From the NCBI RefSeq assembly GCF_014268885.2, contig NZ_CP077095.1, positions 711,001 to 775,000 on the forward strand: a DNA stretch of 64,000 nucleotides, written 5' to 3'. This stretch comes from Pseudomonas xantholysinigenes. Lineage in GTDB: Bacteria > Pseudomonadota > Gammaproteobacteria > Pseudomonadales > Pseudomonadaceae. The notes under the pieces were generated by a model. The model was not told the DNA's origin and did not search any database. It saw only the letters and a program-made list of their open reading frames with translations. The translations under genes were made by a program, and so were the position numbers. Positions 803-20,160 of the stretch are shown here, piece after piece; positions within the stretch are counted from its first letter, which is position 1; each line of letters opens with the position of its first letter.

Positions 803-1237
803 CAGGACGTGGCCTCCTGGATTCTTGCAACTAGAAGCTCAGTCCACCGAGCAGTGTAAGCAGAGGGGGCCAAAACTCTAGTCGTTTCGCCCGCTAGCCG
901 GCTTGGCAACCAGTTCATAGAGCCGCAATTTGAGCTCGATGACGCCCATGCCAACTACGCCTCGGCCTGCAGAGCGGCATGCGCATCAGCCTTATCTGTA
1001 CAGGTGGCGGCGATGTGGCAAAACGCCGATGTCCAAGGATTGCGCCCTGGCCAACTGAAAGCACATCTGGAGCTCAACAAGTAGGTTCTGGCTCGATTCG
1101 CTTCAGACGGTTAAAGTTCGTCATCTGCATTAATCGTATCCTTTTATGGCTATTAAGATTTCTCGCGTTCAGAACCCAAAAATCCGGTTAGTTAATAGCC
1201 TTTCTGTCGTCTCAAAATTAATCGAACGGAATCCCCG
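803..1237. other. Gene-poor stretch between the YagK-like gene and the defence operon
   Basis: No convincing complete gene is seen. On the plus strand a reading frame is open from 860 to the TAG at 1082-1084. It ends in LKAHLELNK and has no plausible start codon, so at best it is the 3' remnant of a lost gene. From about 1090 the sequence becomes AT-richer and probably holds the promoter of the downstream helicase-methylase operon. Confidence 0.4.
1148..1200. promoter_or_regulatory. Inverted repeat upstream of the defence operon (possible operator)
   Basis: GGCTATTAA at 1148-1156 is repeated in inverted orientation as TTAATAGCC at 1192-1200. The arms flank 35 AT-rich bases about 40-90 bp before the start of the first operon gene. 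This placement suits a regulator-binding site or a long-loop hairpin in the leader. No regulator is encoded next to it in the window. Confidence 0.3.
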
Positions 1238-4200
1238 ATGAACAATTCAGACACAGCGGCCAGCCACGTGCCCCGTGTTGGCATGCTCGCCACTGTCCGG
1301 AACCGCCGCGGTGTGATCTCCTCTGTAGAGCCCTTCAGTGACAGTAAGACCTCTGCGTTGCTGCACCTGGTTACCATCGAGTTCAGCGATGCCGATGGTG
1401 ATGTAGAAGAATCGCTGCTATGGGAGCGTGAGCGCGGTCCGGTGGTATTGGAGCCGAATGCTCTGCCTAAAGTCGATCGCGAAGCCCCGATGCAGCAGGA
1501 TGAGTTTCTGGCTCTGCAGCGTGCCGCTCGATGGAGCGCCCTTACTCCGTTCTTATCTGCAAGTGATCTACATGAGCGCTCGGAGCCAGTGCCTACTGCT
1601 CCGGTATATGGTGCGGTCAGCGTTGATGACTTCCAGCTCGTACCCCTAGCGCGGGCCATGCGCATGCCACGTGTGTCTCTACTGTTAGCCGATGATGTGG
1701 GTTTAGGGAAAACCGTCGAAGCCGGTCTGATTCTGGCTGAACTGATCCGCAAGCGTCGTATCCGCCGGGTGCTGATCATTACTCCTGCGGCTTTGCGTAC
1801 CCAGTGGCAGCAGGAGATGGAGGAGAAGTTCTCCCTCGGTTTCGATATTGTCGACAAAGCCGCCACCCACAAGCTGCAGAAAGAGATGGGACTGGATGCA
1901 AACCCCTGGCGTGCACTGCCGCGCATCATCACGTCTTACCACTACTTGCGTCAGCCTGATGTGCTGGAGCAGTTCATCGCCAATTGTGAATCCATTAAGC
2001 AGCGGGGTGGTGCACAGCTGCCGTGGGATCTGCTGATTGTTGATGAAGCCCACAACCTGATGCCGTCCAACTTCGGCGAAGACAGCGATCTGGCCAAAAT
2101 GCTGCGGATCTTGACGCCGTACTTTGAGCACCGCCTGTTTCTGACAGCCACACCGCACAACGGCCATACCCGCTGTTTCTCGGGTCTGCTGGAGCAACTA
2201 GACCCAGTTCGCTTCACTCAGACGCCGGACTTCACCGATAAAGAGCGTAAAATGATCGGCGATGTGCTGATCCGCCGTCTGAAAAGCGAGATCAACGATC
2301 AGGATCGCCATGCGGGCCGAGTGCCGCGTTTTGCCAAGCGCTACCTCGAACCGTTGCCGCTGTATATGTTCAAGCCGGAGCAGGAGCTGGCGGGTGCCGT
2401 TCGCAAGTTTTGCGCGCAGTTGAAAGGAATTATCCGCACCGCTCCCGAAGCACGCATGGTGCTCAATTTCGCCATTGAGATTTTGCGCAAGCGGTTGTTG
2501 TCGTGTCCGGTGGCCTTCGCCGACAGCTGGTTGCGCTTCAAGGAGGGCCTGGCTGCCAAAGAGGCGTTGCAGGCAACTGAAGTGGCTGCCGCCCGTCGTG
2601 CCAGTGAAGAAGATATCGACGATGATCAGGAGCGCGAGAGCCGCAGCCGCCATGCCGCGCAGCTCGTCGGCGCCTGGATGCACCCCTACGTGGATGCACT
2701 GCAGTCAGAGATTGACGCAATTGATGCCGCGCTGAAGTCTTTGGGGCTGGACAAGCAGCCCGTGGTTATGGCTAAGCCGAAATCGGATGCCCGGTTTGAT
2801 CGCCTGCGCGAGCTGATCGGCAAGGAGCTGCGTAACGCTGAACAGTGGAAAAATGATGAGCGACTGATAATTTTCACCGAGTACAAAACCACGCTCGACT
2901 ATTTGGTCAACCGCTTGAATGACGAGTATGGCGCTGAACCCGGCAGCATCTGCATGCTCTATGGCGGCATGCATGAGGACGAGCGCGAGTCGGTAAAGCG
3001 CGCCTTCAACGATCCAGATGCGCCGATACGAATTTTGGTCGCGACCGATGCAGCCTCTGAAGGTCTTAACCTGCAGCACACTGCCCGCTTGTTGATGCAC
3101 TACGAGATTCCGTGGAACCCCTCGCGTCTAGAACAGCGTAACGGCCGTATCGACCGTCATGGTCAATCACGGGATGTCACCATCTTTCACTTCACCAGCG
3201 AAGATGACAGTGACCTACAGTTTGTCGCCCGCGTGCTGGGCAAGGTCAACGACATCCGCGAGGATCTAGGTTCGGTGGGTGAGGTGTTTGATGCCGCTTT
3301 TCAGCGTCGCATGATGGAGATGGACGAAGACCGCGATGTGTTGGGTGACCTGGACCTGCAGATAAGCAGTCGCAGAAGTGCAACCGAAGATGCTCAGGTT
3401 CACACAGAGGAAAGCGGCGAAGACGAAAAACAGCGGTTGCAACAGCTGCTAGACGATCTAGACCTTAATCCCGGTACCCTCAAAGACACACTCGGCGTTG
3501 CCATGGGTCTGGGCGCCTCGCGAGAAGTGCTGGATGGTCCTGATGCCCAGGGCCGCATGCGCTTGCGTACGCCGCTACCTATGCGCTGGCAGGCCGTGGT
3601 CGATGACACCCTGCGCTTGCCCTTGCAGAAAGGTATCAGCGGCGCCATGCCCTGGCTGGTGTTCGACAACCACTTCTTTATCCACAACATCAATGGTCGG
3701 CCGGTATTCCGGCCCTCCCCGGACACCGTGCTGCTGCACCTGGGCCATCCATTGCTGCGTCAGTCGCTCAATGCCTTTGCACGCTTGCGCTTTCCGGGCG
3801 GGCAGGCCGAATTTCAGCCGCCTAGCCGCTGGCTGGTAAGCCGAGGCCAGGTGCCGGCTGGCGCTGAAGCGCTGGTGCTGTTCACTGTGGAGGAAATGGC
3901 CGTTAACGATCTGCGCGAAACCTTCCACCACTGGACCCGCACTCTGGCACTGCCGGTGCAAAACAATGCTCTGGGTGAACCCTTGCCTTACAGCGGGCCG
4001 CACTTTGGTTTGCTTGGGCAGCAAAGTGCAGCCGATGTACCCGCCGCACGCGATCTATGGGACGAGGTAGAGGACAATATTAAAACCTTATTGGGCAGTT
4101 ACCGAGCTGATTTGACTCAGATCCTTCGTACCCAACTCAAGAGTGCGTACGAGCAGGCGAGGGATCATGAAAAGGATGCATTCGAGCAGCGCATTCGTGA

Positions 4201-4504
4201 AGTTGCGGCCCTGCAAAAGGCACAGAGCATCGACAAGCTAAAACGAGAAATTGAGCAACAGCGGGTGGCTAGCATCCAGCAGCAACTATTTGATAACGCC
4301 GATGCACTGGCCGAAAAGCGTCTGCGTGATCTGGAGTACGAGCTCAAGCGCCGCCAGAACCAGTTTGGTGACCTGCAAGAGCGTCTGACCGAAGAGAAGC
4401 GTCGTATCCTTGAGCAGGTTCTGCCGCGCCGCTTTGCCCTGCGTGGCGAAGCTCAAGTCTTTCCGGTAACCATTGAAATTCGTTTCCCGGAGGTGGGTGT
4501 ATGA
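1238..4504 (+). CDS. SNF2/RapA-type DEAH helicase, DrmD-like (DISARM-related)
   Basis: A 1088-residue superfamily 2 ATPase of the SNF2/RapA branch. Walker A lies in LLADDVGLGKT (about residues 150-160), DEAH near 269, and motif III as LFLTATPHNGH. The helicase C lobe has IIFTEYKTTLDYL (about 545), motif V ATDAASEGLNLQ and motif VI QRNGRIDRHGQ (about 633). Residues 15-70 form a small beta-rich module (RNRRGVISSVEPF ... LLWERERGP) like the N-terminus of DISARM DrmD. Residues about 965-1070 are charged and helical, likely a coiled coil. The stop overlaps the next start (ATGA), so the genes are translationally coupled. The start follows a weak GGA Shine-Dalgarno. Role inferred from family and context: DNA or chromatin-like remodelling in phage defence. 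RapA itself is less likely because of the extra domains and the operon. Confidence 0.85.
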   Translation: MNNSDTAASHVPRVGMLATVRNRRGVISSVEPFSDSKTSALLHLVTIEFSDADGDVEESLLWERERGPVVLEPNALPKVDREAPMQQDEFLALQRAARWSALTPFLSASDLHERSEPVPTAPVYGAVSVDDFQLVPLARAMRMPRVSLLLADDVGLGKTVEAGLILAELIRKRRIRRVLIITPAALRTQWQQEMEEKFSLGFDIVDKAATHKLQKEMGLDANPWRALPRIITSYHYLRQPDVLEQFIANCESIKQRGGAQLPWDLLIVDEAHNLMPSNFGEDSDLAKMLRILTPYFEHRLFLTATPHNGHTRCFSGLLEQLDPVRFTQTPDFTDKERKMIGDVLIRRLKSEINDQDRHAGRVPRFAKRYLEPLPLYMFKPEQELAGAVRKFCAQLKGIIRTAPEARMVLNFAIEILRKRLLSCPVAFADSWLRFKEGLAAKEALQATEVAAARRASEEDIDDDQERESRSRHAAQLVGAWMHPYVDALQSEIDAIDAALKSLGLDKQPVVMAKPKSDARFDRLRELIGKELRNAEQWKNDERLIIFTEYKTTLDYLVNRLNDEYGAEPGSICMLYGGMHEDERESVKRAFNDPDAPIRILVATDAASEGLNLQHTARLLMHYEIPWNPSRLEQRNGRIDRHGQSRDVTIFHFTSEDDSDLQFVARVLGKVNDIREDLGSVGEVFDAAFQRRMMEMDEDRDVLGDLDLQISSRRSATEDAQVHTEESGEDEKQRLQQLLDDLDLNPGTLKDTLGVAMGLGASREVLDGPDAQGRMRLRTPLPMRWQAVVDDTLRLPLQKGISGAMPWLVFDNHFFIHNINGRPVFRPSPDTVLLHLGHPLLRQSLNAFARLRFPGGQAEFQPPSRWLVSRGQVPAGAEALVLFTVEEMAVNDLRETFHHWTRTLALPVQNNALGEPLPYSGPHFGLLGQQSAADVPAARDLWDEVEDNIKTLLGSYRADLTQILRTQLKSAYEQARDHEKDAFEQRIREVAALQKAQSIDKLKREIEQQRVASIQQQLFDNADALAEKRLRDLEYELKRRQNQFGDLQERLTEEKRRILEQVLPRRFALRGEAQVFPVTIEIRFPEVGV

Positions 4505-7500
4505 GCCTTCATGCGGAAGGATGGGCGCAGCTCAAACATGGTGGCCTGCTGTTATCCCCGTCCAAGCTGGATGAGTTTTTCCCGGTAGCCGCACCTGTCA
4601 TGAGGGAATTTGCGGCCGAAAAACTCCGTCGTGCCCTCACGGCGTTTGACGGCAGTAATGAAAGCCTGAGCAGCCTGCTGGATTACATCCTGCAGGATCT
4701 TTCCGGGCTGCCCGCAGATGAATGGCAAAAGGCTCAGGGCGTCGACAGTCGCTGGGCCGTACGTAGCTTTACCGGCGCCCAGATCAAACCCCGCCGTCTG
4801 TGGCTGGGGCCAAACGGTGAAACCCTGGCCGTGTTCGTGCCTGATGATGGCGGCTCGCGTCAGTTCGCCAGCCGCTTGGGGGTAGGGCGCTCACGGCAGT
4901 TGTTGGGACGCGTGGTCGAATGGCTGCGTCGTACCGGGCAGGCGCTGGCGCTGGTAACCAATGGCCGCCAATGGCGCCTGGTGCAAGCCGGTAGCGATCA
5001 CGACGCCTGGTGCGAGTGGGATATCGACCTCTGGTTCAACGAAGGTCAACCCTCAGCCCAGACAGTGGCCTGGCGCACCCTGCTCAACCGCAACACTCTG
5101 CTGGCAGGGCAGGGCCAGAGTCTCCTGCTGCAAGCCATCAGCGGCTCCCGAAAGGGCCAGGCTGAGCTCTCCAACATACTGGGTGAGCGCGTGCGGCAGG
5201 GAGTGGAAGAGCTGATCACCGCTTCTCATATCGCCATCGAGCAGGCTCAACAGCAAGGGCAGGCGCACGATTACAAAGATCTATACGTCGCCGGCTCGCG
5301 CATTATCATGCGCTGCATCATTACCCTCTTTGCCGAAGCCCGCGGCCTAGTGCCGGTCGACAACCCTATTTATCAGCAGGCCTACAGCCTGGAAGGGTTG
5401 CGTCATCAAATGGACCGCCGCGCCGGTGGCCGAGGCAACGAACGCCTGAGCCAGGGCCGCAGCGCCTGGCCGCGCCTGATTGGCCTGTTCAACCTGATCC
5501 ATGAAGGCTCCGCTCACGAACGCCTGACTGTTCCTCGTTATGGCGGTGCGCTATTCGAACCGGGAAATCCTGGCAGCGACGATGGCATTTCCCGTGCACT
5601 GGCGCTGCTGGAAAGCAGTCAGAATCTGGTCAGCGATCTGCAGGTGCACAAACTGCTGCGCCTGCTCACCCGCACCAAAATGAAGGTGCGACAGGGGCGC
5701 GGCAGCCGCTGGGTTGATGCGCCGGTAGATTTCTCTACTCTGTCTTCGGAATACATCGGCATTCTTTACGAAGGCCTGCTCGACTTCGAACTCAAACAGG
5801 CTGGCGACAATGACCCGGTGATCTTTCTCGCCGTAGGCAACCAGCCTGCCCTGACTTTGTCTCAGTTGGAGGCGATGGACGACAAAGCCATCAAGCAGCT
5901 GTTCGAAGCCCTGAAGAAAAAAGACAAGGCCGGGGATGACAGTGGTGACGAAGGTGACGGGGACGCGGAAGAAACCGCCGACAGCGAAGAAAGCGAAGAG
6001 AACGCCGACGAAGAAACCGAATCCGTCGAGGACGACAGCCAAGAAGGGATTGTCGCCAGCGACGACAGCGCAGAAGAGCTGATCCTTAGCGAAGAACATC
6101 TAGTCCGGGCCAATACCTGGCTGCAGCGTGCCGCGCAGATTGCCGGGCTGGTAAAAAAGCCCCGTGGCCGCAAAGCCAATGCCACCGGTGATGAAGAACA
6201 ACAGGTACTGGAAAAGGCCGGCAAGCATCTGTGTGTTCGTATGGTCTCCCCCGGCCAGTTCTTCCTGGTGCGCTGGGGTGGTACCCGTAAGGGCGCCGGC
6301 ACCTTCTACACCCGGCCCCAACTGGCCGCGCCCACCGTGCGCCGCACCCTGCAACCACTGGCTTATGAGGCCGTGCGCAGCGAAATCGATTCGCGCACCG
6401 GGCTGGACGCCGTAGTGGAGTGGGCACCGAAAAAGCCCGAGCAGATTCTGGCCCTGAAGGTGTGCGACCCGGCCATGGGCTCTGGCTCTTTCCTTGCGGG
6501 TGCCCTGCGTTACCTCACCGAAGCACTGACCCAGTCGCTGTTCCACCATAAGCTGATCGAGCGTAGCGAAGATGGCGGTGTGCCACGCATGGCTGACGGC
6601 AAGTTGGCCGAACTGCTCAGCGATGAGTTGACCAAACTCAATCCCAAAGATGATGGCTTTGAAGAGGCTCTACGCGCCCAGCTCAAGCGTCACATTGTGG
6701 AAAACTGCCTGTACGGCGTCGACCTTGACCCGCTAGCAGTGGAGCTGGGGCGTATGGCGCTCTGGGTGGAAACTATGGACCGCGATCTGCCCTTTGGCTT
6801 TCTTGATCACAAGCTCAAGGTCGGTAACGCCCTGGTGGGCACCTGGTTTGACAACTACCGCGACTACCCAGCCTTGGCCTGGGAGCGGGAAGGCGGCGAC
6901 AAGGACTACCAAAAGAACAAACCGGACAACCTGATCAATCACGGGTACGAAGACGCCAAGGGCAAGCGCAAGGGTGACGTCTTTACCGATGCGATAAAGG
7001 CTCGCAGCAAGGCTGTACCCGAGCAACTGCAGGCGCTGCTGAGTGGCCAGATGACCCTGGAGGGCAATCTTGATGCCGGCAATGTCCACGACGAGCTGCT
7101 CAAGGTGTTCAAGAAGCTACATCGCCTGCCGGTACACGAGAGCGAAAAACGTGCCGAGGTCTACCGCAACGAGGTACTGAACAACCCGCACTACCATGCC
7201 CTGAAAGCGCGCATGGACCTATGGTGCGCACTGTGGTTCTGGCCCGGCGAGCAGATCGAGCTGGCACCGCTGCCGCGTGAGTTTGCCAACCCCAATGAGC
7301 ATGCGTTGGCCATTGCCGGCGAAGTAGCCCGCCGCCAGCGCTTTTTCCACTGGGAGCTGGAGTTCCCGGATGTGTTCACCGCCACTCAGGACGGCTTTGA
7401 TGCGTTGCTGGGAAACCCTCCATGGGAAATCCAGAAGCCCAACTCCAAGGAGTTTTTCTCCAACCACGACCCGCTCTACCGCGCCTATGGCAAGCAGGAG

Positions 7501-9582
7501 GCGCTGGTCAAGCAGCTGGAGTATTTCCGCGCCTGGCCGCAACTGGAGCACGACTGGATTGCTTACAACGCCAGCCTGAAAGGGATGTCCAACTGGGCGA
7601 AGTATGTGGGCAAGCCTTTTGGTGATCGCGTTACCGAAGACAAGAATGGTAAGAAGAAGCACGACCTGAACTTGGGCAGCGGCAGAAACAGCTTTGAAGC
7701 CTCGGCGGTCGTGCATAAAAAGTGGCTGCAACAGCGTAAGAAAAACAAGGGCTTCGCCGATACCGCACATCCTTTCCTGCATCAGGGCTCAGCTGACCTC
7801 AATACCTACAAGCTGTTTCTGGAGCTAAGTCATGCACTGCTGCGCGGGCAGGGGCGTCTGGGCATGATCGTGCCCAGCGGTATTTATACCGACAAGGGCA
7901 CCACCGACCTGCGTGAGTTGTTCCTCAGTCAGTGCGACTGGCAGTGGCTGTTTGGCTTCGAGAACCGCGAAGGCATTTTCGATATTCACCGCTCTTTCAA
8001 ATTTTGCCCGCTGATCGTGCAGAAGGGCGGGCAAACCGAGGCCATCTGTGCTGCCTTTATGCACCGCAACGTGGATGACTGGGAGCAGGCCGAGCGCCAT
8101 GTGCTGGCCTATCCACGCGCGCGGGTGGAGGAATTCTCGCCGTACTCCAAGGCCATTCTGGAGATCCGCAGCGAGCAGGATCTGCGTGTGTTGCAGAAGA
8201 TGTACGCCAACGGCGTGTTGCTGGGTGACCAAAGCGAGAACGGCTGGGGTATCAAGTACGCCACCGAATTCCACATGACCAACGATTCCAAGCTGTTCCC
8301 TCCGCGGCCCAAGTGGGAGGAGAAGGGCTATTACCCCGACGAGTACGGCCACTGGCTGAAAGGACCTTGGCGCGACTACTGCGGCTCGAAGCATATCCTG
8401 GAGCGCGACCCTGGGTTGGTGCTGTCGCGGGATGGGCGGCAGGGGATACCTGTTGAGGCGATTGAGGATGTGGCATTGCCAATTTACAACGCCAAGATCT
8501 TTGATCTTTGGGACTATTGTGTTTCTGGTTGGCTATCCGGAAAGGGACGTGGCGCGAAGTGGGAAAATATCGGTTTCCCGAAGGTGATGAGGCCCGAATA
8601 CCTTATGGGTTTGGCTGACTGGATAGATACAGGTGCAGTCCGTAAAACAAGCCGCCTCTTGTTCAAAGATATCAGTACAGCCGTCCACAAACGTACGATG
8701 ATGTCTGCTATTACACCAAATTTCCCGGCAGTTAATGCTTCGCCGGTGCTCTCGTGTAGTCGATTCGACGGGGAACTTGAGCTTCAATCAGTTCTTGGGT
8801 CTTTTGAATTTGACTATATTGCCAAGTTCAAAATTGGCTACCTTCATCTTAATTACTTCATCGTGGAAGAGTGTGCGCTGGCCAGACCGGAATCGATTGG
8901 TAGTGTGCAGCAGATCATCAAAAAAATCAGCGCGCAACTTTCATGCTGCTCGGAGAGCTTTTCGCCCGCTTGGATCGATGCCGTGCGTTCTGATACCGCA
9001 ATGTCATGGAGAAGGCTGTGGGCGCTTACTCAGGCCGAGAGATTGAGGCTTAGAGTTATTCTTGATGCTCTTATTGCTCATTTGTATGGATTAGATGGCG
9101 ATGAATTTTTTTGGATTTTAAAAGATACGGATTACCCTTTGGAGTTTTTGAGGGTAAAGGCAAATACGCAGGCTCTTGATCAAAAAAGGTTCTGGCGTAT
9201 CGACAAAGACAAAGACCCCGAACTGCGCCATACCGTCCTGTCACTCGTCGCCTTCCAAGACCTCCAGGAAAAAGGCCTTGTTGCCTTCCTTGCCCAGAAC
9301 GATGGTGAAGGCTGGATGATTCCCGAGGAATTGCGTCTGGCGGACTATGGTTTGGGCCATGACGAGCGCGCCCATTGCAACCAGCCGGTAGCTTCACGCC
9401 TGGGACCACGATTCTACGACTGGCAGTTGAAAGAAGATGTGGAGCGTTCCTGGCAGGAGTGCACCGCCCATGCCGAGTTGATCCGTCGCATTGTGCCGCT
9501 GCCGGAGTTGGAACAGTCCGACCGGCTCGCCGAAGCGCATGCGTCCCATAAAACAGAATCACCGCAGGGAGCACTGTTCTGA
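4501..9582 (+). CDS. Giant N6-adenine DNA methyltransferase, DrmMI / type IIG-like
   Basis: A 1693-residue gamma-class amino-methyltransferase of the Eco57I/type IIG kind. SAM-binding motif I is DPAMGSGSF, starting at residue 656, and catalytic motif IV is NPPW at about 972. The N-terminal 300 residues have the ALVTNGRQWRLV signature seen in type IIG and ISP enzymes, but I see no clear PD-(D/E)XK there. Residues about 471-527 are an extremely acidic Asp/Glu linker. After the catalytic core, GIFDIHRSFKFCPLIVQ marks the entry to a TaqI-type target-recognition region. The DNA for about 8460-9200 within that region is visibly AT-richer than its flanks. It overlaps the upstream gene by 4 bp and the downstream ATG by 1 bp. 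Likely job: host modification for the defence operon. An alternative is a stand-alone type IIG enzyme or a BREX PglX relative. Confidence 0.85.
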   Translation: MSLHAEGWAQLKHGGLLLSPSKLDEFFPVAAPVMREFAAEKLRRALTAFDGSNESLSSLLDYILQDLSGLPADEWQKAQGVDSRWAVRSFTGAQIKPRRLWLGPNGETLAVFVPDDGGSRQFASRLGVGRSRQLLGRVVEWLRRTGQALALVTNGRQWRLVQAGSDHDAWCEWDIDLWFNEGQPSAQTVAWRTLLNRNTLLAGQGQSLLLQAISGSRKGQAELSNILGERVRQGVEELITASHIAIEQAQQQGQAHDYKDLYVAGSRIIMRCIITLFAEARGLVPVDNPIYQQAYSLEGLRHQMDRRAGGRGNERLSQGRSAWPRLIGLFNLIHEGSAHERLTVPRYGGALFEPGNPGSDDGISRALALLESSQNLVSDLQVHKLLRLLTRTKMKVRQGRGSRWVDAPVDFSTLSSEYIGILYEGLLDFELKQAGDNDPVIFLAVGNQPALTLSQLEAMDDKAIKQLFEALKKKDKAGDDSGDEGDGDAEETADSEESEENADEETESVEDDSQEGIVASDDSAEELILSEEHLVRANTWLQRAAQIAGLVKKPRGRKANATGDEEQQVLEKAGKHLCVRMVSPGQFFLVRWGGTRKGAGTFYTRPQLAAPTVRRTLQPLAYEAVRSEIDSRTGLDAVVEWAPKKPEQILALKVCDPAMGSGSFLAGALRYLTEALTQSLFHHKLIERSEDGGVPRMADGKLAELLSDELTKLNPKDDGFEEALRAQLKRHIVENCLYGVDLDPLAVELGRMALWVETMDRDLPFGFLDHKLKVGNALVGTWFDNYRDYPALAWEREGGDKDYQKNKPDNLINHGYEDAKGKRKGDVFTDAIKARSKAVPEQLQALLSGQMTLEGNLDAGNVHDELLKVFKKLHRLPVHESEKRAEVYRNEVLNNPHYHALKARMDLWCALWFWPGEQIELAPLPREFANPNEHALAIAGEVARRQRFFHWELEFPDVFTATQDGFDALLGNPPWEIQKPNSKEFFSNHDPLYRAYGKQEALVKQLEYFRAWPQLEHDWIAYNASLKGMSNWAKYVGKPFGDRVTEDKNGKKKHDLNLGSGRNSFEASAVVHKKWLQQRKKNKGFADTAHPFLHQGSADLNTYKLFLELSHALLRGQGRLGMIVPSGIYTDKGTTDLRELFLSQCDWQWLFGFENREGIFDIHRSFKFCPLIVQKGGQTEAICAAFMHRNVDDWEQAERHVLAYPRARVEEFSPYSKAILEIRSEQDLRVLQKMYANGVLLGDQSENGWGIKYATEFHMTNDSKLFPPRPKWEEKGYYPDEYGHWLKGPWRDYCGSKHILERDPGLVLSRDGRQGIPVEAIEDVALPIYNAKIFDLWDYCVSGWLSGKGRGAKWENIGFPKVMRPEYLMGLADWIDTGAVRKTSRLLFKDISTAVHKRTMMSAITPNFPAVNASPVLSCSRFDGELELQSVLGSFEFDYIAKFKIGYLHLNYFIVEECALARPESIGSVQQIIKKISAQLSCCSESFSPAWIDAVRSDTAMSWRRLWALTQAERLRLRVILDALIAHLYGLDGDEFFWILKDTDYPLEFLRVKANTQALDQKRFWRIDKDKDPELRHTVLSLVAFQDLQEKGLVAFLAQNDGEGWMIPEELRLADYGLGHDERAHCNQPVASRLGPRFYDWQLKEDVERSWQECTAHAELIRRIVPLPELEQSDRLAEAHASHKTESPQGALF

Positions 9583-12500
9583 TGTTGAACCCCATTACCT
9601 ACACCGAAGACGTGGTCAGCGACTTTCTGCGCTACCAGCTCAGTACCTATGCCTTTGCTGACGAGAATCTGTATCGACAGATGCGTGAACTGCTCAACCT
9701 CGAGCACACCCGTAATACGCCGCTGATGAAAGGGCCATTTATCTCCCTGTCGCGGACCTTTATGAAAGGTGCGAGCCTTGATCAGTTGGTCAAGGACGAC
9801 GTGTTGCACCCGCATATCCGCCAGTTGTCTCCCTATCCGGGGGCCTACCGGCACCAGGAAAAGGCTTTTCGCTCCATCAAGGCTGGCCGCACCACGCTGG
9901 TGGCCACCGGTACTGGGTCGGGTAAGACAGAGTGTTTCTTGCTGCCAATCATCAGCCGTTGCCTGCACTTGCGCGACGAGGGTGCCGAAGCGGGTGTGAC
10001 GGCTGTGATCGTTTACCCCATGAACGCCCTAGCTGAAGATCAGCTGCAGCGAATGCGCGAGCTACTGGTCGGCACCGGTGTCACCTTCGGCATGTATGTG
10101 GGCAAAACCCCGCGTACCGAAGCCGACATCAATGGCGTGCGTCTGGCACCCGGCAGCACTGTGGTCGATTACCGCTGCAAGTTGCAGCAGATGCAGCTAC
10201 AGAAAATGGACGTGGCTCTGCACCCGGCTGAGGAACGGGTGAGCCGTGAAGCCATGCGCACACCTGGCCAGCAGCCACGTATTCTGCTGACCAACGTCAA
10301 GCAGCTGGAGCTGCTGCTTACCCGGCAGCAGGACCTGGAATTGTTCGACAAGGCACTGCTGGAGTTCATGGTATTTGACGAGGCGCACACGTTCACCGGC
10401 GCTGGCGGCGCCGAAACCGCCTGCCTAATTCGCCGTTTGCGTGCCTATTGCGGCAAGGACGAAAACAGCACCACCTGTGTCGCCACCTCCGCCACCATTG
10501 CTGACCCGCACCGCGGTATTGAAGCCGGCCGCGAGTTTGCCAGTCGTTTCTTTGGCGTGGATGGCCAGGATGTCGAGCTGATCGGCGAAGCCTACGAAGA
10601 GGATATCTGGGGCGAGCCGCGCACTGTCAGCGCGCCCTTCAATGGCGATCAGGCCATGCAACTGAAAACCGTGCTGGAAATGCTCGGTACCCTGGACCGG
10701 ACCGAGTTAGAGCCCGCTGACCTGCAGGCATTCCGCATCTGGTTCCAGACAACCAGCGGTATTCGCATGGCCGGTGACAACTGGCGTGAGGCCCTGAACC
10801 AGTGGCTCAGCCATAACGAGGTGGTGTTTCAAATCGCCGATGTGCTGCGCCGTCCGCGAGCCGTGGTTGCCTTGTTGGAAGAACTGAACGACAAACTGGG
10901 ACGCCCCGTCACAGAAGAGGAAATCCTGATCTGGCTGGCCCTGGGAGCTGCGGCCCGGAATGGTGAGCGGCCGTTGCTGCGCCCGGTGGTACACGGCTTT
11001 GTGCGCGGTGTCAGCGGTGCAGTGGTGACCTTTGAAGAAGGGCAAGGGCAACTGGGGCGCCTGTGGCTGTCGGCTGAGGATGCACAGGCTGCGACTGAAT
11101 GGCGTGATCCTGAACTGAAAACCTTTCCACTGTCGAGCTGTACGACCTGTGGCCAGCACTACTTCGAGCATGCGCTGGAGGATTTCGATTACACCGGTGA
11201 TGCGCCTGGCGGTGGCTCCGCAGAGGGCACGAGTCGTGTATGGCGTGCCCTGGACATTCCGTTGGGGGGCGTACGTGCGGTTTCACTGGATCATCAGGTT
11301 GGCTCCGATGGTGAGGAGGAACCCTCGCGTACTGAGGTGCTCTTCGTCTGCCGTTATTGCGGCACCACGCATGACCGGCAGGCTCCTGAATGTGTTGGTT
11401 GTGGCCGCAACAAGACCCTTAAGGCATTGCACTTCGTACAGCAGAAAGAAGAACATATCGGCCGTCTGACCCGCTGTGTATCCTGCGGCGCCCATGGTCG
11501 CCGGGTTAGCGGCAGCTACCGTGAACCGGCCCGTCCAGTACGCGCGACGGGCGTAGCGGATGTGCATGTCCTGGCCCAGAGTATGATCCACCGTGCCGAG
11601 CGCAAGCGCCTCCTGGTGTTCGCAGACAACCGCCAGGATGCCGCTTTCCAGGCGGGCTGGATGCAGGATCGCTCCCGTCGTTATCGCCTCAGGGAATTGG
11701 TCTACAAAAAGCTACGCGAAGGCGCCGTCTCGGTCGGTGATCTGGTGTTGTGGCTGGACAAGTTTCTGGATGCAGATGATGAGTTGTCGCGGGCGTTGAT
11801 CCCAGAGGTTTGGCGGGTCGAACCCAAATCGGAAACCAGCCTGGCGCATGCCGAGGAGCGCAAGTGGTTTTTGCGCGCGCAGGTGCTGCGTGAGTTGACC
11901 TTGGGCGCCCGCCAAAGCACCGGTCTGGAGCCGTTGGGGCGTTTGAAGATCCAGTATCTGGGGCTGGATGAAGCACTTCCGGTTATTCAGAAGTGGGCAA
12001 GGGCATTGGGCTGCTCACCAGCTGACTTGCGCGACGGAATTGCCTCGCTGTTGGATGCCGCCCGGTCACGGCGCATGCTGTTTGACCCTGTCACCCGCAT
12101 GTTTTCCAAATTCTGGCTGGACGGTGAGAAGGAAGTACTGCGCGGTTATCTGCCTATCATGCGTGGCGTACCTGAAGGCTTGGTGTTTGTGCGCGATGGT
12201 CAGCACGACAAAGGGCGTATCAAGCAGTGGTTCAGCACTTACGACAGTTCCGCCAAACAGGCTGCTGTGAGTTGGGGAGTGGATCCCGATCACGTTCAGT
12301 CGTTTCTGGATGAAGTTTGGCGCCTCTGTACCGATGAACTGGAGTTGCTGACGCAGGTGCAGTTCAAGGGAGCCCGCGGCAAGAACTTGCCAGGCTGTCA
12401 CGCCGCCACCCAAGTGCATGTAGATCACATGATGCTGGTGCCTGCGTCAGGCATGTATCGCTGCCAAACCTGCCGGCGCCTGCATGCCCGAGGTAACCCG

Positions 12501-14999
12501 GGTATGACCTGTATGGCCTGGCGTTGTAGTGGCAAGCTGGTATTCGAGGCCGAGAATCCAGACAACTACGACCTGCTGCTGCTGGATCAAGAGTTTTCTA
12601 TGCTCCGTGCCCGCGAGCACTCTGCGCAGATTCCGGGGCCGGAGCGTGAACGCATCGAAAACGCTTTCAAGGGCGAGAGCGAGCGGATCAACACGCTTGT
12701 GTGTACGCCCACGCTTGAGATGGGCGTGAACATCGGTTCGCTGGATGCAGTTTTGATGCGCAACGTACCGCCCCTACCGGCCAATTACTGGCAGCGGGCT
12801 GGTCGTGCCGGGCGTCAGTTCCGCATGGCGCTGGATCTGACCTATGCACGCACAACCAGTCATGACCGAGCTTATTTCAATGAACCGCTGAAGATGCTCG
12901 AGGGGTTGGTGGAACCTCCCAGCTTCAACCTGCGCAACCCTGTCATGGTGGCGAAGCACGTGAATGCCACAGTACTGACCACGCTGCTGCAAATGCTGCG
13001 TAGTAACAGTCTGCCAGGACAACAGGTCACTGCGCTGCAGGAGGCCTTGTCTGCCTGCTTGCCACCTCAAATTAGACCCTATCTGTTTACCTCTGATGGC
13101 ATGGTGAGGACTGAGCCTCTATCGGTTGAAGCACTGAGCCAGCAGATAGCTCAGCATGATGCAGCACTCTTGAATGCGGTGATTAAAGCCTTCCACCAAG
13201 GATGGCCGGCTAGTGACCGCGAGGTAGTAAGCCGTGGCCAGTTAGAGGTGCTCATTGGTAGTTTTGCTGAGCAGCTCCAGGGGGTAATCAATCGTCTATT
13301 CCAGCGCCTGCAGTGGGCGTTGGGGCAGTTGGAGCGGTTGCGTAAGGTGGCCGCTGGCAAGGGCACACTGGACGCCGATGAAGAGGCCTTGCGAGCCCGC
13401 TGCGAAAGGCTGGTAAAAAAACTAAAAGGCGAGGCCAAGCGCAATCGTAGCCAGGCAGAGGGTTTTGATGACACCAATACCTATGGCGTATTAGCGGCTG
13501 AAGGCTTTTTGCCGGGTTATGGATTGGATACCGGTGCGGTTACCTTGACCCATGTAGCGCCTCGTCACAGCAGTGACATTAGTGATTGGGAGTTACGCCG
13601 TAACACTGCGCTGGCTGTTCGCGAATATGTGCCTGGTAACCTGATTTACGCAAATGCTCACAAATTTGTGCCTCGTCACTTCCATCTAGTCCCGGAAGAG
13701 CCTTTGGTATTTGCTGTAGATGTGGCAAGTGAGTCAGTCCAGGAAACTGGCCCGAACACTAAGGCTGGCAGTGAAGCCAGCTCCATGTCGGTCACGCAAA
13801 TTCCGGGTGTAGCGATATGCGATGTGGATGCCCCCCATCATTCCTATATTTCGGACGATGAAGACTATCGCTTTCAGATGGCGGTGGCAGTCTTTGCTCA
13901 AGATCAGGGGCGGCACTCCGGCGGTAAAGTCTATGAGTGGGGCAAAGCGCAGTTGCATCTGAAGCATGGCCTGCACATGCGTTTGGTGAATGTTGGCGCG
14001 GCTTCGCAAGTGCGATCCGGGGCGTTGCTGGGTTATCCGCTTTGTCTGGTGTGTGGTGCTAGCCGCTCGGCCATGAGCAGCCAGCAGGAGCTGGATAAGT
14101 TCAATGAGCATCATATCGAGCGCTGCGGCCGTCCCGTTCAGACCATCGCTTTCTACGCCGAGGTGGTAGCCGACGTACTAGTACTCCAGGACTGCCCCTC
14201 CCAGGAAACGGCCTACAGCGTCATGGAGTCGCTGCGTCAAGGAGCAGCCGACGTTATGGATATGGAGATATCCGATCTCCAGGTACAGGTGATAGGCAAA
14301 CCGGGGAGTGAGTCGGTAGATGCGCTGCTGTATGACCCCATGCCGGGTGGCTCGGGCCTGCTGGAACAGTTGCTGGAGCACTGGCCGAATGTGGTGAGTG
14401 CGGCAAGGCGCTTGGTCGAGGAATGCCCGTCTGACTGTGAGTCGTCCTGTGTGGACTGTCTCCAGCATTTCCGCAACTCTTTCTATCATGACAAACTGAA
14501 TCGCCATACTGCGCTTGAAGTCTTCAACGACTGGGGGAGCACCCTGAACTTTGCCCATGAGTTGGCGCCTGTTTTGCCGGATGAAACAATGACTCAGCAA
14601 CCGGGTAATCCGCCTGAGCAACACCTAGTGGCAATGCTGAAGGCGGCAGGCATGGCTGCGTTTGAGACTGAGCGACCTATTGAGCTATCCGGTGGCATCA
14701 CGACTCGTCCGGATGTGTATTTCCACGAGCCCAACGATCAGTACGAGGGCGTTTGCATCTATTTAGATGGCATGAGCGAGCACCTGCACGGCAATGCCCT
14801 AACAGCCGCCAAGGATCGTCAGATCCGTCTGGAATTACTGAACAAAGATTACGAGGTGATCGAAATCCAGTTCCAGGAGTTGTATGACAAGACTGTGATG
14901 CGTGAACACATGCGCCGCATTGCGCGAGCAGTGATCGGCAAGGCGAAGGCCAAGGAGTTGGCTGCTAGTGATGACTGGTTTGATTCTGCGAGCAGCTGA
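9582..14999 (+). CDS. DEAH helicase with zinc ribbons, DUF1998-like domain and Vsr-like nuclease tail (DrmA/DrmB or DruE-like)
   Basis: An 1805-residue multidomain protein. ATGTGSGKT (Lys115) is Walker A, DEAH lies at 266-269, and QRAGRAGR at 1071 is motif VI, so both SF2 lobes are present but widely separated. Between them are CxxC pairs (CTTCG at 520 and further pairs around 590-635), suggesting zinc ribbons. At about 1615 the pattern C-x3-C-x3-C-x2-C (PSDCESSCVDC) is typical of the DUF1998/MZB module of DrmB, DruE and related helicases. The last 100 residues hold RPD (1709-1711), YLDG (1727-1730), HLHG (1734-1737) and KDRQ (from 1744) in the order seen in Vsr-type endonucleases. It is the last gene of the operon. 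A helicase-nuclease effector is inferred. DrmA+DrmB fusion and Druantia DruE are the two closest models. Confidence 0.82.
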   Translation: MLNPITYTEDVVSDFLRYQLSTYAFADENLYRQMRELLNLEHTRNTPLMKGPFISLSRTFMKGASLDQLVKDDVLHPHIRQLSPYPGAYRHQEKAFRSIKAGRTTLVATGTGSGKTECFLLPIISRCLHLRDEGAEAGVTAVIVYPMNALAEDQLQRMRELLVGTGVTFGMYVGKTPRTEADINGVRLAPGSTVVDYRCKLQQMQLQKMDVALHPAEERVSREAMRTPGQQPRILLTNVKQLELLLTRQQDLELFDKALLEFMVFDEAHTFTGAGGAETACLIRRLRAYCGKDENSTTCVATSATIADPHRGIEAGREFASRFFGVDGQDVELIGEAYEEDIWGEPRTVSAPFNGDQAMQLKTVLEMLGTLDRTELEPADLQAFRIWFQTTSGIRMAGDNWREALNQWLSHNEVVFQIADVLRRPRAVVALLEELNDKLGRPVTEEEILIWLALGAAARNGERPLLRPVVHGFVRGVSGAVVTFEEGQGQLGRLWLSAEDAQAATEWRDPELKTFPLSSCTTCGQHYFEHALEDFDYTGDAPGGGSAEGTSRVWRALDIPLGGVRAVSLDHQVGSDGEEEPSRTEVLFVCRYCGTTHDRQAPECVGCGRNKTLKALHFVQQKEEHIGRLTRCVSCGAHGRRVSGSYREPARPVRATGVADVHVLAQSMIHRAERKRLLVFADNRQDAAFQAGWMQDRSRRYRLRELVYKKLREGAVSVGDLVLWLDKFLDADDELSRALIPEVWRVEPKSETSLAHAEERKWFLRAQVLRELTLGARQSTGLEPLGRLKIQYLGLDEALPVIQKWARALGCSPADLRDGIASLLDAARSRRMLFDPVTRMFSKFWLDGEKEVLRGYLPIMRGVPEGLVFVRDGQHDKGRIKQWFSTYDSSAKQAAVSWGVDPDHVQSFLDEVWRLCTDELELLTQVQFKGARGKNLPGCHAATQVHVDHMMLVPASGMYRCQTCRRLHARGNPGMTCMAWRCSGKLVFEAENPDNYDLLLLDQEFSMLRAREHSAQIPGPERERIENAFKGESERINTLVCTPTLEMGVNIGSLDAVLMRNVPPLPANYWQRAGRAGRQFRMALDLTYARTTSHDRAYFNEPLKMLEGLVEPPSFNLRNPVMVAKHVNATVLTTLLQMLRSNSLPGQQVTALQEALSACLPPQIRPYLFTSDGMVRTEPLSVEALSQQIAQHDAALLNAVIKAFHQGWPASDREVVSRGQLEVLIGSFAEQLQGVINRLFQRLQWALGQLERLRKVAAGKGTLDADEEALRARCERLVKKLKGEAKRNRSQAEGFDDTNTYGVLAAEGFLPGYGLDTGAVTLTHVAPRHSSDISDWELRRNTALAVREYVPGNLIYANAHKFVPRHFHLVPEEPLVFAVDVASESVQETGPNTKAGSEASSMSVTQIPGVAICDVDAPHHSYISDDEDYRFQMAVAVFAQDQGRHSGGKVYEWGKAQLHLKHGLHMRLVNVGAASQVRSGALLGYPLCLVCGASRSAMSSQQELDKFNEHHIERCGRPVQTIAFYAEVVADVLVLQDCPSQETAYSVMESLRQGAADVMDMEISDLQVQVIGKPGSESVDALLYDPMPGGSGLLEQLLEHWPNVVSAARRLVEECPSDCESSCVDCLQHFRNSFYHDKLNRHTALEVFNDWGSTLNFAHELAPVLPDETMTQQPGNPPEQHLVAMLKAAGMAAFETERPIELSGGITTRPDVYFHEPNDQYEGVCIYLDGMSEHLHGNALTAAKDRQIRLELLNKDYEVIEIQFQELYDKTVMREHMRRIARAVIGKAKAKELAASDDWFDSASS

Positions 15000-15243
15000 A
15001 TGGTTGGTGTGGCTGTATCCCATGACAAGTATTGCCATTCAAGACCGTAAACTCGAATGAAGCAGGCTTTGTACCCTATCAGGGCTGCGTACCATTGGTT
15101 GGCCTGCAGGTCGCTGCTGGAGCCTAGAGTAAGGAGCAGGATGGACGACTTGAGCTGGCCGAACATGCTGAAGACTGGGTCGTGCTGCAGAAAAAATTGA
15201 CGTCTCGATAGAGCGGGATGACAAAAGCAATTCACGTGACGGT
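15000..15243. other. Non-coding stretch after the defence operon
   Basis: No gene with a credible start and coding character is seen on either strand. A 128-residue minus-strand frame entering this region overlaps the end of the helicase gene antisense and looks spurious. Confidence 0.4.
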
Positions 15244-15273
15244 CGCATGGGTAGCCTTGCTGCTACCCATGCG
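15244..15273. terminator. Perfect 12-bp hairpin between convergent operons
   Basis: CGCATGGGTAGC and GCTACCCATGCG pair over 12 bp around a 6-base loop. It lies where the plus-strand defence operon and the minus-strand radC operon converge. There is no long T tract on either side, so it is either a weak bidirectional terminator or an RNA-stabilising hairpin. Confidence 0.5.
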
Positions 15274-15284
15274 TTCCAAGGTTC

Positions 15285-15467
15285 CTATTGATGTGCTGAC
15301 TTTGAATCTCTAGCCAGTCGGTTGAAAATCCAGCAGGCCAGCAGCACCACGATTAGCAGCGGTGGAAAGCGCACTATCAGAACCACCAGCAGTAATATTG
15401 CCAGGCAGCCAGCAAAAATGCCTGCAAACACGAGTACAGCGGTGAATGTGCGTAGCAGCACCTTCAT
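15285..15467 (-). CDS. Small hydrophobic membrane protein
   Basis: Sixty residues, dominated by two hydrophobic segments (about 8-28 and 33-50) separated by a short VRFPP turn, and ending in a polar Arg/Lys tail. This suits a two-helix inner-membrane hairpin. AAGGAGA lies 6 bases before the ATG, a strong ribosome-binding site that supports a real gene. It begins about 10 bases after the radC-like stop codon, so the two are probably cotranscribed. I do not recognise a family. Confidence 0.6.
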   Translation of the reverse strand: MKVLLRTFTAVLVFAGIFAGCLAILLLVVLIVRFPPLLIVVLLACWIFNRLARDSKSAHQ

Positions 15468-15476
15468 ATTGTCTCC

Positions 15477-15974
15477 TTACAAGTAGCCTTGTTCAGCCAG
15501 CGACACACAGCCGTCACTGCCAACGATGATGTGATCCAGCGTTCGCACACCTATCAGATTGAGTGCCTCTTTGAGCGTGTAGGTCAGTGAGCGATCAGCC
15601 TGGCTTGGCTCGGGGTTACCGGATGGATGGTTGTGAACCAAGATAACAGCTGCGGCATTGTGCTCTAGGGCGATTTTGACCACTTCCCGCGGATACACGC
15701 TGGCACTATCCAGAGTGCCTCTAAATAGCTCCTGAAAGCTGATTACTCGGTGTCTAGTATCGAGTAACAGCAATGCAAAGACTTCGTGCTCGTGATACTG
15801 CAGCAGTGTTTGCAGGTGGCTGAATACTTGCTTCGGATCAGTCAGCGCCCTGCCTTTAGATAGACGACTCATCGCCAGCTGCTGAGCCATCCGCAGGATG
15901 TCAGCTTCGGTGACCGGTGATTCCATAACGTAGGTGCCGGTCATCTCACCGGCTTTGAGCTTGTGATATTTCAT
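15477..15974 (-). CDS. RadC/YfjY-like JAB-domain protein of the island
   Basis: A 165-residue RadC-family protein (JAB/MPN fold). The metal motif is visible as LVHNHPSGNPEPSQAD (HxH followed by a distal Asp), preceded by the conserved block KIALEHNAAAVI. It has only the JAB part and lacks the helix-hairpin-helix N-terminus of chromosomal RadC, as is usual for copies on mobile elements such as YfjY of CP4-57. I chose the ATG at 15974 because AGGA lies 8 bases upstream; the frame extends further only to a TTG. Despite the name, RadC proteins have no proven repair role. Function on islands is unknown. Confidence 0.85.
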   Translation of the reverse strand: MKYHKLKAGEMTGTYVMESPVTEADILRMAQQLAMSRLSKGRALTDPKQVFSHLQTLLQYHEHEVFALLLLDTRHRVISFQELFRGTLDSASVYPREVVKIALEHNAAAVILVHNHPSGNPEPSQADRSLTYTLKEALNLIGVRTLDHIIVGSDGCVSLAEQGYL

Positions 15975-16407
15975 GTGGGTAGTCCTGTACAAATTTGGGA
16001 GAATGCACTGGGGCGTTTGAGGAGGGCGTTACTGGGCCGAGTCCCCGCTGTTCTGCCTCGTGGCTTGTTTGGGGTAATGAGGGGCTGGCAGGTGCTGCCC
16101 GCTGGGCTTGGGGCTTTGCGGGGCTAGACTGATCTTCAATGGTGGGGAAGAACTCTTCGACGATGGCACTGGTGTCCTCTTGACTGTCTTCGAAGGCTCC
16201 ATTGCGAAATCCCTCTAGGGCCGCGTCGTCCAAGGCACTCTAGTCAAAGCCCGCAGCTTGACGGGTCTCCTCCAGTTGTTTGGCCTCCAAGGCGTCTTCC
16301 AGGCCTAGGCCGCTTCGTACCGTGGGCTGTTTCTGAGTGAGCTGATTGCCTAGGCCGTGCCACGGGGTAGCGCCAGCGTAGGCAATAGTTTCGACGAGAT
16401 GTGCCAT
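15946..16407 (-). pseudogene. Decayed DUF932 (phage/plasmid-like) gene with internal deletion and in-frame TAG
   Basis: The frame starting at 16407 reads MAHLVETIAYAGATPWHGLG, which matches the N-terminus of the DUF932 / TIGR03299 family common on integrative elements. The family has about 250 or more residues. Here the DUF932 similarity ends after about 30 residues and passes directly into unrelated acidic sequence. A TAG at 16240-16242 interrupts it, after which the same frame continues as SALDDAALEGFRNG and a Pro/Ser/Gln-rich tail to 15946, overlapping the radC start. I read this as a deletion that joined the DUF932 5' end to the 3' end of a neighbouring gene, followed by a nonsense mutation. 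The downstream 95-codon part might still be translated from an internal start, but no good ribosome site is seen. Confidence 0.6.
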
Positions 16408-16497
16408 GTGAGAGATTCCTTTGGGTACAAGCCGGCATAAAGCGCCGCGCGAGGCGCAGCACTGACCGGACGAATAAATGGAGGGAGATAGGGCTGA

Positions 16498-16827
16498 TTA
16501 GGTTGGCAGATTGAAGCGGTGGCCGCAGAGCAAGCAGAGGTTGTGAGCCAGGACGTGGCGGTCGAGCGACTCGCCGAGCTGAGCGCCGAGCGCGCAGCCA
16601 CCGACACCACCGGCCAGGCCGCCGAGGATGGCGCCCGACACGGAGCCAAGGGTGATGCCAACTGGCCCGGCGATAGCGCCAATGGCTGCGCCGGCCTGGC
16701 CGCCAGCTAGGGCAGCGCTGACGCCACGCGCAACACCGCCCAAGGTGCCGATGGCCGCGCCGACTTTCTTGGCGTGATGGAAATAAGCGACTTTGGGGGA
16801 ATGACAGCAGGGGCACTGCAATGACAT
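16498..16827 (-). CDS. Small glycine-zipper membrane protein with terminal cysteine pairs
   Basis: A 109-residue protein. The ATG at 16827 is chosen because AGGAGG lies 8 bases upstream; upstream in-frame starts lack one. Cys residues at 5, 7 and 8 (CPCC) and a C-terminal CLLCGHRF could together form one zinc ribbon. The middle (about 22-90) is a run of Gly/Ala/Ile residues with GxxxG spacing (AAIGAIAGP, GAILGGLAGGVGG), as in glycine-zipper membrane domains. Proteins of this layout are frequent on Pseudomonas integrative elements next to radC and DUF932 genes. The function is unknown. Confidence 0.65.
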   Translation of the reverse strand: MSLQCPCCHSPKVAYFHHAKKVGAAIGTLGGVARGVSAALAGGQAGAAIGAIAGPVGITLGSVSGAILGGLAGGVGGCALGAQLGESLDRHVLAHNLCLLCGHRFNLPT

Positions 16828-17760: not shown

Positions 17761-18558
17761 CTATGCATAACGAGGCTCGTACTTACAATAGCTCTTAATA
17801 CTGCAATCGCTGCATCGAGGCGTCTTCAAGCAAATACCCTCAGGAATACCAAAAACCTCAGACTGCATTTGTCCATAGGCTACAAATACAATGTCAATGT
17901 ATCGAATGGGATGCCCTGTTGCTTCGGCAAACTTCCTACCCTGCAGCACAGTCTTGAGAAGCTGGTCTTCGTTTTCCAGAAGTCCAAGCCGCTTGAAAAT
18001 TCGGCACATAACTCGGTCCGGTTTGAGTACCGGAAGGCCAATGTCAGTCATGAAATGGTAAACAGTAACTCCACCTAAATAGACAAATGCTGCTTCGAGT
18101 GATTCTTTCAGCAGAAGAAGATTCTCGAACGATTCAGATGCGGTAAAATTATCTAGGTATTGCTTGAATGAGCCATGCTGAGCAACAAACTCTTGCACTC
18201 GCCTCGCGTTTTTAAGGCATCCACGAATTTTTCCCTCATGAGCAATCATCTCTGGGTCGGCAAGAATCCTCTGAACATCGTCTTCGGTGTATGCTGCCAC
18301 AGTTTTCCAGTCTGGGAAGTGGCGTTTGATGATGTCGGTCTTGGCAGTCACCGTGGCAGCCCTAAACCCTGAATAAAACGCAACGAAAACTAAGATTAAG
18401 TAGTATTCATTGTCAGTACGTTTACGAGTGCCGTAAGTTTTGAATTTGTCGAGATTGGCGCGGATCTCGACCTCAGGTTTGTTTAGTGAGCCATATTTGA
18501 CCAGGTGACTCTCAACGGTCTCAAAAATTTCTTTGTATGGGAATGGAGTAGAGCTCAT
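17761..18558 (-). CDS. HhH-GPD / Tag-like DNA glycosylase with C-terminal Cys cluster
   Basis: About 265 residues. The central part (IIKRHFPDWKTVAAYT, then ILADPEMIAHEGKIRGCL) follows DNA-3-methyladenine glycosylase I (Tag). The segment FVYLGGVTVYHFMTDIGLP, followed by KPDRVMCRIFKRLGLL, resembles the helix-hairpin-helix and catalytic-Asp region of HhH-GPD glycosylases. The C-terminus has C-x5-C-x2-C-x5-C, close to the C-x6-C-x2-C-x5-C iron-sulfur loop of endonuclease III and MutY and not a feature of canonical Tag. The N-terminal Cys of the Tag zinc site is not seen. The ATG at 18558 is preferred; the frame reaches a TTG at 18624. Likely a base-excision enzyme carried as island cargo; the substrate is unknown. 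Confidence 0.7.
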   Translation of the reverse strand: MSSTPFPYKEIFETVESHLVKYGSLNKPEVEIRANLDKFKTYGTRKRTDNEYYLILVFVAFYSGFRAATVTAKTDIIKRHFPDWKTVAAYTEDDVQRILADPEMIAHEGKIRGCLKNARRVQEFVAQHGSFKQYLDNFTASESFENLLLLKESLEAAFVYLGGVTVYHFMTDIGLPVLKPDRVMCRIFKRLGLLENEDQLLKTVLQGRKFAEATGHPIRYIDIVFVAYGQMQSEVFGIPEGICLKTPRCSDCSIKSYCKYEPRYA

Positions 18559-18756
18559 AAATTTTTGACTTGGATTGATTCCTAAACAGCGATGGTAGCT
18601 TGGGCCGGCGGGCGTATTAGACAATTTTTAATTTCAGGTGATGGCCGACCCTATTTCCTCGTCCGAAGCTAGCAAAACGCTATCTTGGTGTCTATCGCCC
18701 GTTTCTTGCCTTATGTAGCCTACTGCGACCGGCTACTTTTGGGGCAGTATTTTTGA

Positions 18757-20013: not shown

Positions 20014-20014
20014 G

Positions 20015-20084: not shown

Positions 20085-20160
20085 AAAAGGTGTAGCTGCT
20101 CATGGATGTCCGTGGACGCCGGTGGCGTTGAAAGCCGCGTATTTACTGGCTTTCAGGCAC

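Follow-up and report, generated by a model that had tools for sequence, protein, structure and literature searches.

A three-gene ARMADA-like operon in Pseudomonas xantholysinigenes whose ArmC has lost the LexA-like tail of its relatives

A three-gene operon with the ARMADA core

The window analysed here is a stretch of 64,000 nucleotides (nt) from Pseudomonas xantholysinigenes (contig NZ_CP077095.1, positions 711,001 to 775,000), which carries on its plus strand three long open reading frames (ORFs) at 1238-4504 (1088 amino acids, aa), 4501-9582 (1693 aa) and 9582-14999 (1805 aa). An earlier note, made from the letters alone, had seen here three overlapping genes for a DrmD-like SNF2 helicase, a DrmMI-like gamma-class adenine methylase and a giant DEAH helicase with DUF1998-type cysteines. 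The ORF coordinates, with overlaps of 4 nt between the first and second genes and 1 nt between the second and third, place the genes exactly, and the profile matches bear out the three protein types. The first product, an armA-like RapA/SNF2 helicase (DrmD/BrxHII-like), has a Walker A motif at residues 155-159, DEAH at 269-272 and the Pfam domains SNF2 and Helicase_C above their cut-offs; among its NCBIfam and PADLOC matches, the DrmD model NF038317 scores 641.6 bits against a cut-off of 610, and BrxH models match as well, as expected of the BrxHII/RapA-like helicase of ARMADA. The second, an armB-like methylase (PglX/DrmMI/type IIG-like), has its S-adenosylmethionine (SAM) motif at 656-664 ahead of NPPW at 972-975, the order found in gamma-class adenine methylases. 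It matches the PADLOC IIG model PDLC03622 at 2702.5 bits, DrmMI at 418 bits and Pfam Eco57I above cut-off; matches to PglX models are weak (19-28 bits) where those to IIG and DrmMI are strong, and we take it as the PglX-like adenine methylase of ARMADA.

The third product, armC-like by profiles, motifs and trees, is a YprA/DruE-type DEAH helicase with Walker A at residues 110-116, DEAH at 266-269 and seven CxxC motifs. Pfam places, all above cut-off and in one chain, a RecA1 (DEAD) domain at residues 90-307 (9849-10502), a RecA2 (Helicase_C) domain at 1004-1078 (12591-12815) and a DUF1998/MZB (MrfA zinc-binding) domain at 1549-1627 (14226-14462), the combination of YprA and DUF1998 that ARMADA calls for. 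Two features go beyond the earlier note: a decayed remnant of a further domain just past the stop, described below, and a Vsr-like PD-(D/E)XK nuclease domain at the C-terminus (residues ~1676-1786; 14607-14939), recognized from invariant residues and from the predicted fold of the homologue from locus L011. The prediction was made on L011 ArmC, which is 93% identical to that of the window in the shared part, and the domain was placed with the same numbering.

These proteins correspond to the core of ARMADA, which a preprint (Bell et al. 2025; PMC12458937) describes as three proteins: ArmA, a helicase resembling RapA; ArmB, a methylase resembling PglX; and ArmC, a YprA-like helicase that bears a Vsr-type nuclease. 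Type II adds ArmD (RelE-UvrD), the order being A-B-C and then ArmD “almost always”. The preprint reports phage protection by an E. coli Type II system, a requirement for all four of its genes, and a direct, non-abortive mode of action for ARMADA. The window has the A-B-C order of Type II (E. coli ATCC 8739 / NCTC 12900) and the same three kinds of protein, and it lies on a probable mobile element beside a transfer-messenger RNA (tmRNA) gene, as the elements of Bell et al. lie at transfer RNA or tmRNA genes; unlike Type II, it has neither ArmD downstream nor a tail resembling the E. coli ArmC end, and its ArmC scores 221 bits against E. coli ArmC and falls in a separate clade. Type I (Rhodococcus L077, Paraburkholderia L080, Mesorhizobium L082) likewise consists of three core genes with no ArmD annotated beside them, but its order is C-A-B, and its ArmC (210-258 bits) is again in a separate clade. 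Since the core definition is matched and ArmD is lacking, the trio is, judged by its domains and motifs, ARMADA-like rather than a DISARM with fused genes. The same armA-armB-armC order recurs in genomes of several phyla, and the arrangement in the window is therefore not due to chance.

The earlier note had named ARMADA for comparison and rightly saw an operon of the defence type, but its preferred reading, a compact class 1 DISARM with drmA, drmB and drmC fused in the third chain, is now very improbable. The DrmD and DrmMI models do match, as they would in class 1 DISARM; however, the third chain scores 399.8 bits with DruE3 against 51.4 bits with the top DrmA model, its nuclease is Vsr-like whereas DrmC is a PLD nuclease, and the three genes together are those of the published ARMADA core. 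Separate genes for the DrmA helicase and the DrmB DUF1998 protein, like a separate drmC, are not present in the operon, where the first two functions reside in a single chain, and no DrmC/PLD model appears among the best 25 PADLOC matches or the Pfam matches of the three proteins, to which the search for DrmC was confined. We therefore reject DISARM on the grounds of the DruE/YprA-like ArmC, the Vsr-like nuclease and the gene set. Druantia was also rejected: ArmC, like DruE, is a YprA-type helicase with DUF1998 and matches DruE models (214 bits for E. coli DruE against ArmC), but its partners are ArmA and ArmB, and no DruH-like ORF was found in window positions 1-25000. The earlier note had said that a match to an already named three-gene system would remove the novelty, and this largely applies; what may still be new is the tail carried by the relatives of this ArmC and its loss in the window.

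A modular C-terminus in ArmC

The ten best ArmC homologues are 1980-1986 aa long and all carry a Peptidase_S24 domain, with PF00717 above cut-off in 3/3 S24-bearing ArmC scanned. Among the best 120 of 3402 homologues, 41 end in S24, 62 have no more than 40 residues of tail (a few of these proteins may be incomplete), 13 have a tail of the ArmD-linked type and 4 another tail. Four homologues (P0085, P0090, P0091 and P0093) have other ArmC tails at the same position, as though different modules could be swapped in and out there. The S24 tail of the window's relatives resembles the LexA/UmuD peptidases in its predicted LexA fold, its Ala-Gly site and its catalytic Ser and Lys, the site and both residues being kept in 13/13 aligned ArmC S24 domains; unlike LexA and UmuD, it is fused to a helicase-nuclease.

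By locus, 56 reach the end of ArmC (window included), and S24 is found in 19 of them. The presence of ArmD could be assessed in 47, where the downstream DNA was long enough or ArmD was seen (9 were dropped, and two ArmD-bearing E. coli loci lie outside the count); these comprise 16 loci with S24 and no ArmD, 11 with ArmD and no S24, 20 with neither, the window among them, and none with both. All 11 ArmD-linked proteins have a tail of 78-132 residues alignable with the C-terminal part of E. coli ArmC, and so probably the “inactivated Vsr” of Bell et al. (PMC12458937); in 20/20 of those with neither S24 nor ArmD the tail is at most 13 residues long. No separate S24 gene was detected by the S24 profile among the ORFs of the loci so counted. 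The exclusion of S24 and ArmD has a Fisher p of 0.0085 with kinship ignored; on a tree of 50 ArmC bodies, S24 requires 5 changes and ArmD 6, and the 5 independent pairs (median p 1) are too few for significance. The C-terminus of ArmC is modular, ending in S24, in an E. coli-like tail with ArmD downstream, or in neither, and this arrangement appears to be new. We found no precedent for S24 fused to a restriction or defence enzyme in a search of titles and abstract openings, outside of which lie subscription papers and most preprints, and a word search gave no S24 fusion in the available parts of PMC12458937 and PMC7159879.

Loss of the tail in the window copy

In place of an intact S24 domain with its Ser-Lys dyad, the window has only a remnant on the plus strand at 15000-15187, identified by alignment and by the S24 profile, with the stop at the junction, one gap column and most of the domain deleted. 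The counterparts in L011 of window 908-8480 and 9185-15187 are 1328-8902 and 9603-15607 (the interval between the two blocks contains the target region of ArmB, see below), and the alignment resumes with window 15184-15974 at L011 15969. This jump means that ~361 bp are missing relative to L011, with a 4-bp overlap at the junction (15184-15187). All seven other members of the window's 8-row ArmC clade carry S24. The window copy, placed among S24 carriers, lost S24 by the junction stop and the ~361-bp deletion. No S24 was found elsewhere in its genome among the four candidates scored, a search that might overlook S24 proteins as distant as LexA. A second loss is most simply read in Cobetia (L013), which stands beside the S24-bearing Marinobacter (L014); the DNA downstream of the two does not match.

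The window operon could be what is left of a mobile element in decay and no longer work, with only the relatives of interest. In favour of such decay, S24 is deleted, there is no ArmD, and no attachment (att) repeat was found: no direct repeat of the tmRNA 3' region lies within 60 kb upstream, either as exact 14-mers or as 20-mers with up to 3 mismatches. We nevertheless consider a relic unlikely, for all three long ORFs are intact with their motifs, many loci have an ArmC that lacks both S24 and ArmD (20/47, as above), and the ratio of nonsynonymous to synonymous changes (dN/dS) on the window branch is low. From unique single-base changes among four sequences, this ratio is 0.052 for ArmA, 0.071 for ArmB (target region left out) and 0.041 for ArmC, with 0.014-0.085 on the three other branches. 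ArmABC of the window are otherwise under purifying selection, in an estimate that mixes the time before and after the loss of the tail.

A probable third ArmC lineage with few carriers

We compared ArmC with reference operons from E. coli ATCC 8739, Haloquadratum, Thermus, Rhodococcus, Paraburkholderia, Meiothermus, Mesorhizobium and others. In a tree of 30 rows, the window lineage (13 rows), the E. coli type (7) and type I (7) were each grouped at 100 in the Shimodaira-Hasegawa-like approximate likelihood ratio test (SH-aLRT), with L098b, pre-labelled as window-type, placed outside the window clade. After L098b and the long-branched L097 were dropped, the best tree joined types I and II (support 84.9), and approximately unbiased (AU) tests rejected neither a grouping of the window lineage with type II (p 0.059) nor one with type I (p 0.244). 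An earlier tree of 59 rows had a base support of 33, and the trees contain long branches. In these trees the window ArmC forms a third lineage apart from types I and II, although placement inside either is compatible with the AU tests.

Carriers are rare, with 2/95 near genomes and 2/390 genomes of the order (own genome counted in both), and the nearest named one is Pseudomonas aestuarii. Among single representatives of the GTDB species, a scan by pattern brought up 64 distinct loci, a search of E. coli DNA with window 9582-13500 gave no match, and in a phage collection ArmC matched 2/50,697 records, each covering less than 40% of the query. In one locus (L079), on a plasmid of Synechocystis sp. 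B12, armA, armB and armC are each split into several short ORFs.

An exchanged region in ArmB

In blocks of 50 residues, ArmB residues 1300-1550 (8398-9150, plus strand) are only 8-62% identical to the window in seven close relatives, with the drop beginning already at residue 1200 in L008. Other blocks are mostly 80-100% identical, but some relatives show lower values over residues 450-600 (58% at the least), over the first block and at the last residues; identity is mostly above 80% throughout ArmA (six relatives) and ArmC (seven). A locally exchanged block is the pattern of target-recognition domains in modification enzymes. On this alignment, the region is the approximate target-recognition region of ArmB, exchanged among close relatives, and its exchange argues for sequence-specific marking of self. 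Sequence-based marking of self DNA is accordingly to be expected of ARMADA-type systems.

The S24 module in other enzymes

With the S24 part alone as query, 587 matches were obtained among long proteins, and by body the best 120 of these are 39 ArmC, 79 BPTD_3080-like enzymes, one IIG-like methylase and one DUF3427 helicase. The 79 listed BPTD_3080-like proteins (P0122-P0202), of ~1200 aa, end in an S24 module 47-58% identical to that of ArmC; as in ArmC, the module closes the chain of many listed members of this family of restriction endonucleases (NF046055), but their body is ResIII-type. With 848 and 864.8 bits, 2/2 scanned lie above the NCBIfam cut-off of 800 for this family. The same module ends the IIG-like methylase (P0194, 1463 aa) and the HIT-ResIII-DUF3427 helicase (P0177, 1393 aa). 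In the last 200 residues of these best 120, the Ser pattern is present in 120/120, the Lys pattern in 117/120 and a simple cleavage-site pattern in 111/120, and the 12 proteins missing a pattern all lie outside ArmC; some of the BPTD_3080-like enzymes no longer have the Ala-Gly site. That the site is kept in the listed ArmC proteins and not in every other carrier calls for caution in extending the idea of a switch beyond ArmC. With that caution, we tentatively propose that S24 is a portable RecA-triggered switch attached C-terminally to at least four kinds of defence enzyme that cut or modify DNA (ARMADA ArmC, BPTD_3080 restriction enzymes, the IIG-like enzyme and the DUF3427 helicase), which would provide built-in, protease-independent restriction alleviation and would replace the ArmD module in the third ARMADA lineage.

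A proposed mechanism

What was observed or computed here comprises the genes with their motifs and predicted folds, the distribution and loss of the tail, the exchanged target region and the low nonsynonymous rate; defence, methylation, cleavage, dependence on RecA and the direction of a switch belong to a mechanism that we infer. ArmB would methylate adenines of host DNA within a sequence that its exchangeable target-recognition domain reads, and ArmA and ArmC would attack DNA without this mark. By analogy with the accounts of ARMADA and Druantia, ArmC may move along DNA from single-stranded stretches and cut with its Vsr-like nuclease. In the relatives, filaments of RecA on single-stranded DNA would cause the S24 tail to cleave itself, which most likely would turn the nuclease off during host DNA damage, as a built-in restriction alleviation; the window ArmC, having lost its tail, should act without RecA-linked control. 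We regard it as rather likely that the window holds a probably mobile three-gene ARMADA-like defence operon of this kind, with S24 of the relatives as a RecA-triggered off switch and a window copy that lacks this control. Related systems provide some context: PMC13192584 states that DruE engages intermediates containing single-stranded DNA and is thought to compete with RecA, and EcoKI is held back during restriction alleviation by ClpXP proteolysis, according to PMC11109961.

The opposite direction is also conceivable, with S24 holding ArmC inactive until phage single-stranded DNA loads RecA and self-cleavage frees the nuclease, and with tail-less copies either constitutively active or served by another partner, as type II is by ArmD. 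The predicted LexA-like fold with its intact site would suit such an SOS-gated on switch, as would the finding that S24 and ArmD never occur together and the description, in PMC13192584, of DruE acting on single-stranded intermediates also covered by RecA. However, the tail has apparently been lost more than once from proteins whose body is intact, which would then be unrestrained enzymes, and RecA occupancy seems inhibitory rather than activating in the Druantia/Zorya account given there, so that we consider an on switch unlikely. Still another use of the tail would be as a docking domain for RecA filaments that brings ArmC to phage replication forks bearing single-stranded DNA, with cleavage secondary. 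The predicted S24 fold does resemble LexA domains solved bound to RecA filaments, but docking would not need the site, the Ser and the Lys that are kept in all 13 aligned ArmC domains, and we hold this to be distinctly unlikely.

Several observations weigh against an off switch and a working window operon. A LexA-box-like CTG-N10-CAG, one simple consensus, is absent from the ~500 bp upstream of armA in 17/17 regions, and a section heading of PMC11109961 denies that the alleviation of EcoKI restriction is an SOS function. At the sequence level, LexA chains give only weak matches to the S24 profile (E 0.13-0.75), and among the 81 listed S24 carriers outside ArmC, 8 have no Ala-Gly and in 1 the Lys is replaced by Arg (by eye). 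The exclusion of S24 and ArmD may follow from kinship, as its independence lacks statistical support. The selection estimate does not separate the periods before and after the loss of the tail, and substitutions in the remnant (10/197 columns, against 175/5409 in the body) leave that loss undated. Finally, ArmD is essential in E. coli ARMADA according to PMC12458937, the best match for it in the window's own genome is only UvrD-like (25.9 bits), and ARMADA-like systems without ArmD might be weak or dead.

It has long been asked how restriction-like enzymes spare host DNA that has just been repaired. If the off switch proposed here is real, an effector with its own self-cleaving LexA-like domain would offer an answer different from the ClpXP proteolysis of EcoKI and directly testable, and a defence helicase of the DISARM-Druantia-ARMADA family would be tied to the RecA filament. 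The tail hints at bacteria in which a switch responsive to DNA damage is built into the defence enzyme itself, and the natural series of ArmC proteins, with S24, with ArmD, with neither, or with the tail lost as in the window, is a ready-made experimental set.

Genomic setting

The operon is probably mobile. It lies ~4 kb from a tyrosine integrase gene (18757-20103, minus strand), identified by profile match and position and likely that of the mobile element, which adjoins the tmRNA gene (20198-20596, minus strand), the probable integration site, for which no flanking repeat was found; this setting fits the mobile elements of Bell et al. Adjoining the operon is a RadC/JAB-like gene (15477-15992, minus strand; PF04002, 159.8 bits), possibly cargo of the element, and between operon and integrase lies a gene similar to methyladenine glycosylase (17761-18624; 61.6 bits, cut-off 25). 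Upstream of armA, homology with L011, L008 and G012 starts at window 908; the stretch from there to ~1130 corresponds, by eye, to the 3' part of a small gene that precedes armA in L011 and G012 and whose 5' part is unmatched in the window. The RadC-like stretch of the window is matched by L011 in two places, 15969-16759 and 23955-24452.
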